Part shown: in pieces, positions 21,901-30,900 of the stretch | Numbering within the stretch: position 1 is the stretch's first letter | How the letters are laid out: each line of letters begins with the position of its first letter | Assembly (NCBI GenBank): GCA_963402885.1 | Contig: OY727093.1 | Coordinates: 23,497,409 to 23,561,408, forward strand | Length of the DNA: 64,000 nt | Direction: 5' to 3' | Source: Antedon bifida | Taxonomy: Eukaryota; Echinodermata; Crinoidea; Comatulida; Antedonidae | The notes under the pieces: model-generated | Told to the model about the DNA's origin: nothing | The model's input: only the letters and a program-made list of their open reading frames with translations | The model's database searches: none | Position numbers and translations under genes: made by a program

Positions 21901-24900
21901 ACTACTTAAAGTTATCAAAATTGAATTGAAGATCCATTTTCCATGAATTTTCTCATGATGCCAACTGAATGTTTATGAAGCAATGCGTGTAGTAATGTCA
22001 AGAAATTTACCATAGATGATTAGATCATCATTCTAATAATGTTCTGTTCTTAAGTTTTTTTTTTCTTGGATAACAAAAGGGGTTGAAGCTAAAACTACAC
22101 TGACCGGCCATTGGCTATAAACTGGACAATCAATTACATACAGTTTAATAACCAATGCATCCAGCAGAATGGCTACTGATCATACTATATAAAGTTTTAT
22201 TGTTAATAGTATTGAAGAAAGTTCTATTTCAGTTTAGAAAAGGAACATCATCCTCAGCAGAAACTCAAAGAAACTAAACATAAAGGCTTAAGAGTTTATA
22301 ATGTCCACATTATTTGTATCAGCAATCAGTTCTAATAGTTCAGAAAGGAATTAACATTTTTTTCCAGAGAAATTATCCAACAAAGAGTCAATAATGTAAA
22401 TATATCCAACAGACAAAGTACTATAATAGTTTTTGGTATCTTGATCACATCTCCTTTTATAACAGTGCAACTTCCAACATCAGATAACAAAATGAATGTA
22501 CTCCATTCTAACTACCATGAGAAAGTAGATCAACAACACATGCTCCTTACAGTAAACTGCCTGTGATGATGATGATATCACAAAAGTGTTGAATTACTTG
22601 TTTATGACACATTGTTCCACGATAATTGATTACTGAATAAAATGAAATATAAGGTGCCAACTTCCAAAAACAGCAGTCACATTATACAGAAATGAAGAAT
22701 AAAGATGATTTCAACAATCATGGCGTATAATATTAGAGGATTTCAAGATGTACTGAATAACACAACCGACACATATGTCTATCATAGGCTGAACATGCCA
22801 ACTTATTCTACCTATAACAGACATATCTGAGAGTTATGTACATGCTATTAAGTGCCTGTTTAGAATCAGAGATAAAAAAAAAACACAAACAAAACAAAAA
22901 GAAAACTAAAAACGTTTAATGCAACATTTTAACATTGTATTTCTAAAATTAATCATAATTAACATATAGTAGAACCTCTAATTTGGACATCTTATTCAGT
23001 GGACACCCCTATTGAGGGTACACCTATCGTGAAGCATTGATATAGCATACTCCTATTCAGGGGAAACCCCTATTAAGGGAAAACTTTTTTGGGTTCCAAT
23101 CGGTTATATTCATATTAAACAGACAATCTAATATTTTGGCCTCCCATTTCAATGCCAGAGAAAATATTAATAATTTGTTTTAATAACAATTCAATTATAA
23201 TAATAATCAAGTTATTAATTCTTTAAAAAAATTAATAATTTATCTGCTCTAAACTTTTGCATGTAAATTTGATAGTTGTTTAACATACCTTTGGTCTTGA
23301 CCTAGGCTTAAGCATTGCTAGTTTCTTAGCTGCTGCCTCTATAGATGCCGCTGCACCAAGAAGTTCATTCTCAGCCACAACATGTGGGTCCTCTGGATCT
23401 ACCCAGTCAGGGCCTAGGGAAAACAAATTACGCATTTAATATACCAAATTTATTAATCACAATAGGTGGCACAGTTCCACAAAATAGGCAACACTTCAGA
23501 ATTATTATTGTTATAGTTTGCCTATGCAGCAATTGGACTGTTAAACATCACCCACACTAATCAATTGAGAGCTTCCACAAACATAGTGAACAGTTAAAAT
23601 AATTAATATTATCTGTTTTTAGCTGCAAGTTGTCTTTAGCTGTAAATTTACCTTTGAGAGCTTCAGCAGCTTGTACTACTTCACCGACCGACGTTGCAAC
23701 TCGTTTTGAGTAATGTACCAATTTCTGTTTACCTTCAGGTGTTGGCTTTTGGATGACCTAAAATAAATAAAATACAAAACAATAACAATCAGAAGATTCG
23801 GCGTTCAAATCTTGCTTGGGGTCTTTTTCTCATTCTCACATAAATTATTTCTTCACCAATTTTAAATGAATTAATTAACTTTTTATTTTTTCTATGTCTG
23901 TGAATTAATAAAACATTAACAGGTATTTTCTATTTTCAGACATGACAGAGTTTTCAGAACGCACATTTGACATTTAGGGCTAATATTGACTTCATTTTAA
24001 TGTAACAAGATTTTATTATTTTATATCTCTATTGTTTATATTTTTTGTATACTTTTGTAATATTAAATCAAGTGCAACAAAGTCTAATGTCATGATAAAA
24101 AACATTTCATTGTAAAAATTAAAATTGCAGTTATTCACTCAACGGTATGTATTGTGATGTATCGCAAACTAACGAACTGAAATGGCAATTCAAGATGTGT
24201 GAAACTGTAAAAGGTTACAGGTCGTGACAGCTGTGATGTCATCAAATTCAATATGATAATTTTAAAAGCTTTATGATGGTGGGTGCATAAACCCTGGAGT
24301 AACACATAGAAGTTACTGATGATTTTACTATTCATATTAAAAATGATTTGACTGTAGTACAGTCAAACTACTGGTGTAATATTACTTTGAATGACGAACA
24401 TTTTTTTATGAAGGCCAATTCTACATTTGACAACTTTTGCAACCATTGGTAAATTTTCTAGGGAAAGTTTTGAGCTTGGTTTCCATGTGGATGTAAGTGT
24501 ACCGCAAGTAATTTGACCAATCACAATGTGATGGACTTTTCAAACTGTCGCTTATGATTGGTCAACTCACTTGCACTGCACCTACGTTTTTCAGTTGCAT
24601 CTAGCTTAACATTTTTTTTATGAAAGCATTGATAATAATAGGTTTTATAGGATTATGTCCAAATAAATCATATTGTAGTATGCAATAGGTATATTAAAAA
24701 GAAGCATCCCATGTTTCAGATAACAAAAGAAGCTAAAGAAAATAGCACAATCCATGGAGTGATAGTCTCACCAATGAATATTCTTCCGTTTCTGAATCCT
24801 AATATAAATAATGTAAAAACAACGTACAAATGATGAGTTTGCCCAACTTTGACTGAATATTCAGTATCTATTTATCACAAGGTCCTAATTTGATTTGATA

Positions 24901-27900
24901 TAACAGGAGGAGGACCCCATTGGAAATAAGTTTACTTTTTTGTCGACTTAATGGGTTATCCAGGTATTCTTTTTATACATTGTATATTTTAACTTTTATG
25001 TATGAATATCAAATAAAATCAATCAATCAATCAGAGGATGCTATAATTTTTATTTAAATACATCCAAACATTAGCCAAAATAAGCAAACATAAAAGGATT
25101 CTAGTAATAAAGCCTAAATGGTAAATGTATGCACTATTAGGATGTCTTTTTTTTGTATCTAAAAAAATCGAAAGAAATTGCAACTCAAAGTATTGGAAAA
25201 ATGTGGTGGTTATCATTTGACAAATTCTTATTGAAATTTACAAACATCAAATTGCATGGACTGTTATTGCCAGACATTGTTAATATATTAGTATTGCACT
25301 AAACACAAATACTGTAAAACTTCGATGAATTTCATACAGCTTGTATAGTTGACAAAATGTCAAATTAACATTAATATTAAAAAACAAAATTTTTAATTAA
25401 AGATGTATTGTCCCCCTGAAAAAATAATTCTTAACAACATTTTTTTTGAAAATGCCATTTTAATGTAACATAATAATTTAAACTACAAAATAACATATTT
25501 AAAGTCTGATTTAATTAATCTTCATTTTTCAAGTTTTTGGGGGACAATACATCTTTAATAATTAATTTTAACAACAATTACATTTTTATTTGTACAATTG
25601 TACTTATTATTAAAAATAAATAAGACTAGGTAAAACAGGTCTTACCAGATGAACATTTTGAAGAAGTGAACGATAAGAATCGGCACAGTTCTGTCCAGCA
25701 ACCAGTGTTCTCTGTTTAGCTTCAGGTGTTTGAGCAGTAGCTGCAGCTCCCTGTAAAAAAGAATATTAAGTACAGTATTTGAATATCAAAAATAGAATGA
25801 TACATTAGTTATTAAACATGGAGAATATAGGAAAAACAGTAATTTTCAAATTGCCCAGTTTAATAGTTATACATACAGTGATAATTTTTGACTACAAACT
25901 CAAACTGTTATGTCAGAACTGGAGAAAACTCTCAACTTTGCTTTTTTCTTTAAAGAACTTCAACCTAATATAGTATCATACTATCTGATGAATGTTGTTC
26001 AGTACAGATGTCGGCAAACTGATTGTCCATACAACTAATTCAGTCATTTATATAGGCACAATACGGAATCCCTATTTTCAAAATTAACATCCTACTGTTT
26101 AGTGTTGATTAGGTTATTGTGTAACGCAACATGCGCACATGGTTATAATGAGCACTTCACACAAATAATAATAATCACACAAGAAACTGAAATAAAAGTA
26201 TATAGACATTAACAAAAAAGATTGTTTCAGAGATGAAATTAATAGATTAGAAAAACAGATAAACGATAAAAAAAACATTAGTAAACTAGTCAATTCATTC
26301 ATTTAAATCTTAATTTATAAGAAAAAGTTCATTAAAATCCAAAAATCTATTACTATAATGGTGTCATACTACTCTGTCTTTTTAATAAGATATATTTAAT
26401 GAAAAAATAAAAACACTTAAGTAATTAAAATGACATTCTTCGACAATGTTTAAAATTGAAATAATGGAATATATGGTTTTTTTCTAGTATTTCTATTTTG
26501 CTTTAAAGACATGAAAGCATTGAACGTGTTAATAATTATATATTTAGATCAAGCATAATAATCATGACCTTTCATTTTTATTCTATAGGTCAATTGACCT
26601 GCAATAAAGTCTAATATATATTGAATAGACTGTAGAAAATAAATTGCATTCAGTAATTCACTTGACAAATATAAATTGTGATGCATCATTAGACAAACGA
26701 TGAAATGTTTCACTCAAGATGATACAGAAAACGGCAGATGAAGAGTATACTGAAAACAGAAATATTAGGTCATAGGTCATGTCAGCTGTAAGGTCAGGTC
26801 AATGTCAGGTCATCAAGTTATCAATGACTATGTATAAAACTAAATAATTAATCACATGTTTTTCCTACTCTGAAAAGATTGCCAAATAGTAAATTTGAGA
26901 ATACTTGTGAACTAATACGTTGTTGGGGAATGATTTGAACCTACCAACTTCAGATCACATAGACTGTTGTTTATACCTTGCTAGGATTAGATTTGAGCCC
27001 AAGGAACCAATAAACACTGCACTATTTATTTTTGTGTTACAGTGTCGATTAGTTAGTATTTGCCAAACATGAATCAAAATGTATGAATGTGTGACGACTG
27101 GTATAGTTCAAAGTCAGTACCATTTTTTCAGATCATGTCCAAAGTCACATGAATTATACTGTAGATTTCATAATGGAAACATAAAAGGTAACTCATGCTT
27201 CAACAAAAAGAAAAGAAACTAAAAATAATTTAAAAAGAGTATAGCATAAAACCATGGAGTGAATTCCTCACCACTGAATCTTCCGTTGGTTGTGAACCCT
27301 AATTAAAAAATAGCAATTTGTAAAAGTAAACGTCCTTTTATCACCACACATTGGAAAGTAGCAAGTACTAAACTATAATTTATGCATCATGTTTTATGTA
27401 TTATTATACAGATTTCAAAGAGAATTTTGTATAATACACAGGACTGCTAACTGTGAAGTAATAATATAACCTCCCTGACACATACCATCCCAACAGACCC
27501 TGATCCAAATGCTTGTTTAGCATTCTTATCTAATCAATGCATTTACATCTCACATTTTGTATTTTTTGCATTATACTTTCCTCGGATACACATAATATAA
27601 CTAACTTCTATACCAAATTATACAGAACCAACATTTAAAAGATAAATTACAATTTATAAAAAATAGTGAGTACAAAATATTGGTCATAGGAATGCTAAAA
27701 ATTGGCCTTCTATCGGCTGACAACCTCTCATAAGTGGACATCTGCCATAAACAGTTTTTGTGATTTTGTTTCTACCTAGACTGCATTTCAGAATGTGAAA
27801 GAATTAAAAGAATAGAGTATGTGAGATAGCCCACCTTTTCTAACAAACAGATAGACAAAATAACAAGAAGATTGAATGGGGAAAAATTATTATGAAACAC

Positions 27901-30900
27901 AGAAACTTTTAATGTGTAAAGTCAAATAGTGTAAAATAAATCAATTTTTGCAGTCAGCCATTAAAGCAAAATTCAATTGTGCAACACAACACGACAAAAT
28001 GTTATATTAAAATCAAATCTAGAGTTCGAACAAAAGGGGGTTTTTGCCCAAAGTGTCCTATTGACAGACCAACAGCGAAAGTAATGACAAGCTAGCCTAT
28101 ATTAACTCTCTGTAAAAATGCTGGTTACAGGCTTGTAATTAACAGTGGTAAATTTTGCACCTGAAACACTACCCTTATAGTTAGTAAAGTTTACCCACCG
28201 ATATTAAACCATTTACCAACTTTACACTAATCTTAAAGATAGTATAGAATGTGCTTATAAACTTCAGAGTACCCAAGACATGATGTAGTTCTAATCTAAA
28301 GCAGCCCACATAAAATGACAATGATGTCATGTTTTATGATACATACCCTGCAAGTTTCAAGCAGCTCAAATATAGCTGTACGGCCAAGATTAGATGCAGC
28401 AATTATGTCATCTTGCTTGCAAGAGTTGCCGGCTCCAACAGCTTTCGCTGTTGCAACCGTCACAGGTTTGGTACTGCGAATCAAGTCCTCTGGCGTGTAC
28501 CTCTTTTCAGCTGGTGTTTGAAGAATCTACAAAAAAATGGAAAAGCATGGTGTTTTTGCAAGATATTAAATGCCAGCAACCAGGCTTCATTTTAAGCAAT
28601 TGTTATTACTGCTTGCTTTTTCATTTTAAAATGTAAGGTTAGTGATGCAATGATGATAGAAAAGAAAAGCCACAAACCCATATTCAAAACATTCTGACTT
28701 CAAATTGATTTTAAAAAAAAAAAGTTACCTAATATATGAAAACCTTAACTTAAATTTAATGAACTAGCTTTCAGCTTTCAGTTGAACATGTTCTACTTTT
28801 CTGGAACTGAGGGAACACTGAAAACTTTGATTTGGGTGGTTCCTATACCATGTACACAACATGATTCAAAGTTGAAAGGAACCACAGTATTTAAGCGATC
28901 ATGTCGACATGGAACTGGTTGTAGTTATCAACACCAATTATGGTTACTATTTACTATCAGTTCCAAATGACATAAGCGCTTGCCCACTGGTTCCTTTCTG
29001 TTCTGTCACCTCGGTTCAGCTCTGTTCAGTTGACCGAAAGTGAAATTGAGTGCACAAATACAGTAGTTTCTTTCAGTTGAGTTGATGCTTTCAGTTCCAT
29101 GTTGACAAGAGCATACCATAACCATATCAGGGTACAGCATACAGAAACTAACTAATAGTAACTAACTAGATACATACATACGGCTGTAGTTTGTAACTCT
29201 GTAAATCTGGGTGATTTGCTTTGCATTATATACACTAGATTCACAGGAAGTGAATTAGGGTGTCTATCTCAGATTGCATTTATTGTGTATTGGTATAGTA
29301 TCCAAGATTTGTCATAAGACACTACCCCACTATCACATGACTATACATATTGATAACAGCCTGCTATAAATTTAGTTCCAGATTATAGGTTTTGCCTGTT
29401 ATTAAGATTTGTATAACAAAGCTTGGTCTCGCATGAACAATAGTTGGCTTTATAAAACACACAATTATTGCCCTCATGTAGGTAGATATTAATAAAAAAA
29501 AGAATGTTAAAATAGGAAGGAAACATCCTCTTTTGTATTTGATTCATTGATAACATGTAAAATAAGGAACATTCTCACACACAACAGATTAGAAATCATT
29601 GAGTCATCAATATTGAGCACATCTTTTCAGTTTCAATTTAGGTGTCAATTTCTTTGTCAAAGTTTTGTAAAGACATGAAATGTTAGGTTTCAAGTGTGAG
29701 AGAGTGCAACAAGAAAGGATTTAAATGCATGGGCCTCACACAGTTCAAACTTCAGGAGGGCCACATGACCGAGAAGAAATGTAGACAAGACTTGCATGTT
29801 GTAATTACGTAACAATGTAGAGGCATTACATAATAGTTTACTGCTCATTTACTTACTCTGGCTTCTTGTACTACTGCATCAATTGTTGCTTCCAAAGCCC
29901 TTGTACCACGCAGTGCTTCATCCTCTACACTTTTCACTGTTTTCAACAATGAAGTTACATTTGTTACCATCACCTACAAACACAACAAGTAAAACAACAA
30001 TCAAAAATTGGGCTGGGAATCTAGTAATTTGTCTGTTATTTAATCCAAAAAAGAAAAATATAATTTATAAATCTAAATTATATTTTTTTGACTGTTGAAT
30101 CTTGAATAATAAACAATTGGAATATGTTACTGTAAATAGTTAACACAACAGTGTAATTTAGAGTAGAATGCCTCCATTTGGAAACCCAGAAGTTGTCCCC
30201 TTTTTGGGTTCTACTGCAGTCCGAAACTACAGTATTAATTTCAGTATTATTGTCTTAAATGCACTACCATTCAATATATTAGCGTGTATACATAACAATT
30301 GTGGTGTTTTTCTTCTTTGTGAAAATAATAATTATTTTTACTTGTCTTTTATAAACATGCGTAAATACAGTATTATTTACATAACTAAACAACACTAGTA
30401 GAGTAAACCTGCAATATTATTTATAACAATACAAAACAATTACATTAATATTTAGTTCCTTTATATTATTACGGTAACCGATTTCTGCAGTAATACAGTA
30501 CTCAACTTTGTTGTCGATAATACTGTACTGTATTAACTTTTTATTTTTGTACCTACTTCTTCCTTTTGTATCTTGAAATAACTTATTTTGATTGTTTGTT
30601 ACAATGCAAACAAATATTAAAGTAAATTATCCAAACTGCAAAACATACACAACATTGTTAAAAGATGTATTGTCCCCCCAAAACACAAAGAAAATGAAGA
30701 TTATTAAAGACTTCACAGACAAAATAAATAGTTCAATTCAACCAAAAACCTATTGGCTTTCGGTCAATTTTGACTTTAACAAAATTTAAATTACAGTTTT
30801 TTTGGGTCCATTTTTTTTTTCTGATCCAATTTTTAGTGAATAACTATTATGTGACACTAAAATGGCATATTCAACAAAAACATTTAAAACAATTACTTTT

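Follow-up and report, generated by a model that had tools for sequence, protein, structure and literature searches.

A probable pair of duplicated 27-nt microexons in the R12 region of an Antedon bifida talin gene

Integrins are joined to actin through talin, the central force-bearing link of that connection, and a 64,000-nucleotide (nt) stretch of the Antedon bifida genome—contig OY727093.1, positions 23,497,409 to 23,561,408, hereafter the window—raises the question of whether a talin gene can carry optional microexons within its R12 region. Two candidates, x3 and x4, lie in successive introns of that gene: x3 in intron A, between exons w29 and w30, and x4 in intron B, between w30 and w31. 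Microexons are exons of 30 nt or fewer (PMC7821500), and both candidates have a length of 27 nt and are bordered by AG and GT. We regard the duplicated feature that contains them as real and the microexons themselves as probably real—a known kind of feature in a new place. The explanation that we favour, and consider likely, is a duplicated pair of paralogous cassette microexons, one on either side of w30.

Two candidate insert sites in R12 and one duplicated intron segment

The talin gene occupies the minus strand of the window, and our model of it, built from amino-acid composition and splice signals, comprises 37 exons from 59487 to 15721, a few of which are doubtful. It is the one talin gene found in the genome; a genome search for a talin paralogue or a processed copy with spliced microexons returned five matches, all of them exons of this same gene, and no such copy. 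Read directly on the minus strand, the two phase-0 stretches, their TTAG and GTGAG borders and their frames are as the preliminary description of this DNA had given them, and so is the 11-mer TCACTCCATGG that stands at the same distance past both exon edges. The exonic string common to x3 and x4 is AACGGAAGA. SRRM3/4 (eMIC)-type neural microexons are marked by a UGC a short way ahead of the 3' splice site; by eye, a TGC is present 17-15 nt upstream of x3, and none is present within 30 nt upstream of x4.

Exons w29, w30 and w31 are all phase 0 and join in frame without the inserts, as had been stated and as befits cassette exons. The joined w29-w31 protein aligns with talin-1 residues 2120-2375 (6r9t, E = 5.9e-92) and with 3dyj (E = 7.3e-51), and is homologous to talin-1 R12. 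In the talin-1 alignment with 9qn7, the sole one printed whole here, there are no residues at either site: the x3 site falls directly after talin-1 ...RACK, and the x4 site between ...DHVLL and TLQKP. Both sites lie a few residues ahead of a proline-containing stretch that would correspond to an inter-helix loop. The nine-residue inserts carry net charges of about -2 (x3) and about -4 (x4). An optional acidic nine-residue insert in R12 had been proposed for each; it is supported that each would place nine acidic residues in R12, and that x3 and x4 are spliced, and optionally so, we infer from the sequence. R11 and R12 together form integrin-binding site 2 (IBS2; PMC6032930).

The likeness of x3 and x4 extends much further than the preliminary description had recognised: it is part of a collinear intron duplicate of about 750 nt, copied between the neighbouring introns and beginning near the microexon 3' splice site. 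Between introns A and B the microexon block matches with E = 1.9e-8 (blastn), which bears out the earlier statement that the two are paralogous, and further, weaker blocks are arranged collinearly with a comparable offset (27311/24812, 26796/24241 and 26707-26600/24184-24073). The local alignment of the duplication scores 121 against a maximum of 86 in 200 shuffles. The downstream intron retains its signal when the microexon block is left out, with a global score of 160.5 against a shuffle maximum of 92 (0/300) and a local score of 85 against 56 (0/500). When copy A was tested in 150-nt chunks with 200 shuffles each, the homology was clear in 27233-27084, 26933-26784 and 26783-26634 (0/200 each), weak in 27083-26934 (16/200) and 26633-26484 (3/200), and lost in 26483-26334 (44/200). 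The alignment of the copies holds 470 identical columns among 622 paired ones and has 54 internal gaps; both exonic gaps are 3 nt long, and 15 of the other 52 are multiples of 3.

Upstream of the microexons homology is undetectable beyond about 13 nt, where 22/300 and 44/500 shuffles match the observed scores; with a young repeat excised from intron B there is still none (51/300, and 200 to 464 of 500 shuffles). What this single gene holds is a homologous exon with homologous flanking intron, on the downstream side only. The left edge of the segment, at 27311/24812, all but coincides with the 3' splice site of the microexon. A copy of w30 in the w31 region was considered and dropped, as no signal appears further downstream (27/300 shuffles), and the best matches to the microexon block elsewhere in the window have E = 0.022 or weaker.

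The 11-mer had been taken for a selected splicing element, and this reading is unsupported. At up to one mismatch it occurs in the window at just these two places (0.50 expected). The longest identical runs between the copies are 11, 10, 9 and 9 bases; a run of at least 11 arises in 98.7% of 5000 column-and-gap shuffles of the duplicate alignment, and with a probability of 0.92-1.00 in ungapped simulation at 68-75% identity. Because such a run is expected within a duplicate, and because conservation of the exon block does not significantly exceed that of its surroundings, the 11-mer does not count as evidence for a splicing element; the intronic-element part of the proposal is accounted for by the one duplication that x3 and x4 share.

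A 5' splice-site hairpin pairing GGUGA with UCACU was likewise not adopted. Of the three stretches folded for each microexon, every x4 one had it in its minimum-energy structure, but for x3 only the shortest one did; none of the six differed from shuffles by more than one standard deviation. Genome-wide, TCACTCCATGG occurs at 443 places against 184 for its reversed control, and among the places listed it recurs at a spacing of about 240 nt (G000:C1:28268562-28269301, C7:17461608-17466770 and C7:13022166-13022658). This recurrence points to tandem or satellite repeats, which may explain part of the excess.

Splice-site strength and the competing explanations

We judged x3 and x4 against the trusted sites of the gene, namely 29 acceptors and 26 donors, after 8/37 acceptors and 11/37 donors had been dropped as doubtful. 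Pairing with the 5' end of U1 small nuclear RNA, in the proper register and with six pairs, gives -8.6 for the x3 donor and -8.1 for the x4 donor, equalling or exceeding 23 and 22 of the 26 trusted donors, respectively. Ranked within their own introns (donors by U1 pairing), x3 has acceptor 3 of 115 AG and donor 2 of 166 GT, and x4 has acceptor 1 of 75 AG and donor 1 of 102 GT; in intron B the highest-ranked acceptor and donor enclose an open, in-frame stretch of 27 nt. The matrix score of the x4 acceptor, 10.4, is ordinary among trusted acceptors.

When the 37.6 kb of intron in the talin gene was scanned, alongside 40 shuffles, for candidates of 9-51 nt that are open and in frame, exactly x3 and x4 came out at an acceptor score of at least 6 and a U1 free energy of at most -7 (antisense 0; shuffle mean 0.28; two or more in 1/40 shuffles). 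At 7.5 and -8 it gave two candidates (antisense 0; shuffle mean 0.03; 0/40 shuffles). In neutral simulations at 22-28% divergence, both copies stay exon-grade in 1.4-0.4% of cases. Acceptor strength, U1-based donor strength, frame and openness support the view that x3 and x4 look like genuine exons, and the keeping of both copies by neutral drift appears unlikely. It had been proposed that a duplication with retained intron suggests selection on splicing; the duplication stands, and the step from the identical 11-mer to such selection fails in the form proposed.

Several results weigh against the microexons. For both donors the matrix gives a different verdict from U1 pairing: by matrix x3 scores 4.5 and x4 1.3, and the weakest of the trusted donors scores 6.8. 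The x3 acceptor scores 7.6, and the weakest trusted acceptor 8.1. A matrix scan at the pair's level finds 7 sense candidates vs 3 antisense and 2.7 +/- 1.9 in shuffles; with the x3 donor level as cut-off it finds 2 vs 1 antisense and 0.9 in shuffles. An earlier and now superseded matrix scan, based on a gene model that still contained doubtful exons, had given three candidates at 9 and 1.5 over 37 kb, including x3 and x4, and none at 10 and 1.6. Relaxing the U1-based scan to 4 and -6 yields three candidates (antisense 1; shuffle mean 1.27), a number that 4/40 shuffles reach. Neutral retention rises to 7-14% when only AG, GT, frame and openness are required. The intron scan is support rather than proof, because its thresholds were chosen with the pair in view, as were those of the exon-grade simulation, and because the two copies are not independent of each other.

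Conservation between the copies tells in the same direction. Exon identity is 21/24, and that of the exon plus 20 nt is 37/44, against 401/535 in the rest of the segment (Fisher p = 0.12 for each); against the last part only (93/117) the values are p = 0.28 and 0.34, and against 158/205 they are p = 0.18 and 0.21. Because the gap-tolerant alignment inflates identity in the rest, this test errs on the conservative side. In this comparison, which is between paralogues only, the flanking intron does not rise above a neutral background of the kind that conserved regulated microexons exceed (37/44 vs 401/535). All three exonic substitutions are nonsynonymous, and codon-level constraint is not visible.

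These points bear most directly on a neutral intron duplication, in which an exon-like string was copied, neither copy is spliced at useful levels and the 11-mer is a remnant of the 750-nt duplicate. Such an event would leave what is seen in the extended collinear homology, in an identical run of at least 11 and in an exon block whose conservation is not significantly above that of the rest, and it would sit well with the low matrix scores of both donors and the x3 acceptor; however, both copies keep top-ranked splice sites, frame and openness, and exon-grade retention occurs in just 0.4-1.4% of neutral simulations. We consider it unlikely. Less likely again is that the inserts are constitutive—two extra acidic segments in R12 loops and no isoform switch—or that one copy alone is used. 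The U1 pairing of both donors at the level of constitutive donors, the x4 acceptor as the strongest of its intron, and a single talin gene with no second copy found would all be in keeping with this, but exons shorter than 30 nt are usually cassette exons, the neighbouring exons join in frame without the inserts, and talin-1 in the 9qn7 alignment has no residues at these places.

That a transposable element family brought the microexons into both introns is, in our judgement, highly improbable, although the introns do hold several dispersed repeats. A 27-letter pattern of exon end, donor and 11-mer occurs at two places only in 315.6 Mb at up to three mismatches (reversed control 0), a result that leaves room for old, strongly diverged copies, and the repeats that were found are outside the duplicated segment or interrupt it. 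The similarity search is insensitive at about 70% identity: the x3 query did not list x4, nor the x4 query x3.

In the reading as a duplicated cassette pair, a segment of about 750 nt, reaching from near the microexon 3' splice site into the downstream intron, was copied from one talin intron into its neighbour, and two paralogous cassette microexons would have resulted. The sequence itself shows the duplication, the frames and the splice-site sequences. Each, when spliced in, would add nine acidic residues just ahead of an R12 inter-helix loop, keeping the frame and lengthening the loop; longer acidic loops may in turn alter the mechanical stability of R12 or its contacts with integrin and other ligands, by analogy with the 17-residue exon 17b insert for R1-R2 of human talin-1, and the inserts could in this way tune the opening of R12.

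Repeats and other features

The features discussed here are collected in Table 1. The young dispersed repeat upstream of x4 has at least 39 other copies at 96-100% identity on eleven contigs (best 40 of 2500 candidates scored), and the older palindromic repeat, which interrupts copy B and has the complementary ends TTGACCAATCA ... TGATTGGTCAA, has at least 43 other matches at 71-89% identity (best 40 of 1137 candidates scored). The tRNA-like element in copy A is 71% and 74% identical to two other places, on C7 and C11. A repeat search with the sequence upstream of x3 matched solely the place itself. An inverted repeat seen by eye in intron B at about 25557-25395, TTAAAGATGTATTGTCCCCC ... GGGGGACAATACATCTTTAA, is probably another small inverted-repeat element.

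Table 1. Positions of the candidate microexons, neighbouring talin exons, duplicated segment and repeats, numbered from the first letter of the window
Feature	Positions	Strand	Description
Talin exon w29	28347..28526	(-)	Ends ...AIFELLETCR, phase 0
Candidate microexon x3	27272..27298	(-)	27 nt, phase 0, GSQPTEDSV; AATTAG before, GTGAGG after
TCACTCCATGG after x3	27252..27262	(-)	9 nt from exon edge; longest identical run of duplicate
Copy A of duplicated segment	26600..27311	(-)	Better-supported extent; weak signal to ~26500
Degenerate tRNA-like short interspersed element in copy A	26852..26978	(-)	GGTTCRAATC box
Talin exon w30	25646..25750	(-)	GAAATAQ...LLQNVHL, 35 codons, phase 0 at both ends
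Young dispersed repeat	24912..25035	(-)	~122 nt; ~113 nt upstream of x4
Candidate microexon x4	24772..24798	(-)	27 nt, phase 0, DSETEEYSL; TATTAG before, GTGAGA after
TCACTCCATGG after x4	24752..24762	(-)	9 nt from exon edge; longest identical run of duplicate
Copy B of duplicated segment	24073..24812	(-)	Interrupted by palindromic repeat
Older palindromic dispersed repeat in copy B	24489..24603	(-)	Approximate edges; complementary ends
Talin exon w31	23652..23757	(-)	VIQKPTPEGKQ..., phase 0 start

Separately from the talin gene, the assembly includes a complete-looking mitochondrial contig (G000:C27) of 15,844 base pairs (bp) with a GC content of 26.9%. Its genetic code fits the echinoderm/flatworm type, with AAA at conserved Asn sites and AGA at conserved Ser sites of nad1. 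With genes named by eye, nad1 and nad2 are inverted relative to cox1, and nad4L is between nad4 and nad5; a unique nad4L rearrangement within crinoids is named in the title of a paper cited in PMC7748595. The Comaster mitogenome measures 15,887 bp with 72.73% AT, and that of Florometra has 15,792 bp and 28.1% G+C (PMC7748595). In size and G+C the contig is close to both, and with its code and gene order it looks crinoid-like.

Comparison with known systems

Talin diversity through splicing is known from several animals. A close counterpart of x3 and x4 is human TLN1 exon 17b, likewise a short in-frame cassette exon of the talin rod that was overlooked for long (PMC9997659). Exon 17b is a single, RNA-proven exon of 51 nt that encodes 17 residues between R1 and R2 (PMC9997659), whereas x3 and x4 are 27 nt each, lie in R12, form a duplicated pair and are predicted from genomic sequence. 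In human talin-1 the extra residues that separate R1 from R2 reduce the force needed to open those switches, and such an effect of rod splice variation on talin mechanics in humans was shown only recently (PMC9997659).

In Ciona and Drosophila, as may be the case in the host of x3 and x4, one invertebrate talin gene is diversified via splicing (PMC1702346), but at other places: the talin-a and talin-b forms of Ciona intestinalis arise through an alternative final coding exon, which belongs to the I/LWEQ module (78 residues), and the Drosophila variation is C-terminal, neither consisting of microexons inserted in R12 (PMC1702346). Vertebrate TLN2, too, forms isoforms by differential splicing, as we propose for x3 and x4; its variants, however, do not carry nine-residue inserts but are short C-terminal proteins that lack the FERM domain, described from testes, kidney and brain (PMC6032930). 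Among the papers listed, R12 microexons were not reported in the literature on talin splicing, invertebrate talin, and echinoderm or duplicated microexons, mainly as represented by titles and the beginnings of abstracts.

If the optional insert pair in R12 is true, invertebrates would be using splicing to adjust a rod switch other than the human one, and the pair would offer a natural two-insert series for the effects of loop length and charge on R12 unfolding and integrin binding. A more ambitious proposal is that the two microexons are co-regulated and independently set the length and charge of two successive R12 loops, so that one gene yields up to four R12 isoforms—a splicing dial on a mechanical switch and on IBS2, kept by selection and with a possible connection to the connective tissue, nerve or muscle of crinoids. 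We regard this as speculative and rather unlikely.

Neighbouring pairs of optional neural microexons that lengthen a loop or linker by a few residues are familiar from FAK (boxes 6/7) and n-Src (N1/N2); these are different proteins from talin, the tissue specificity of their pairs is known, and paralogy is not their hallmark. Paralogous exons within one gene are the product of tandem exon duplication, in which the copies are usually direct neighbours and often mutually exclusive. In x3 and x4, by contrast, the constitutive exon w30 separates the copies, and the case illustrates a way for a microexon, along with the intron sequence that follows it, to be duplicated to the far side of a constitutive exon.

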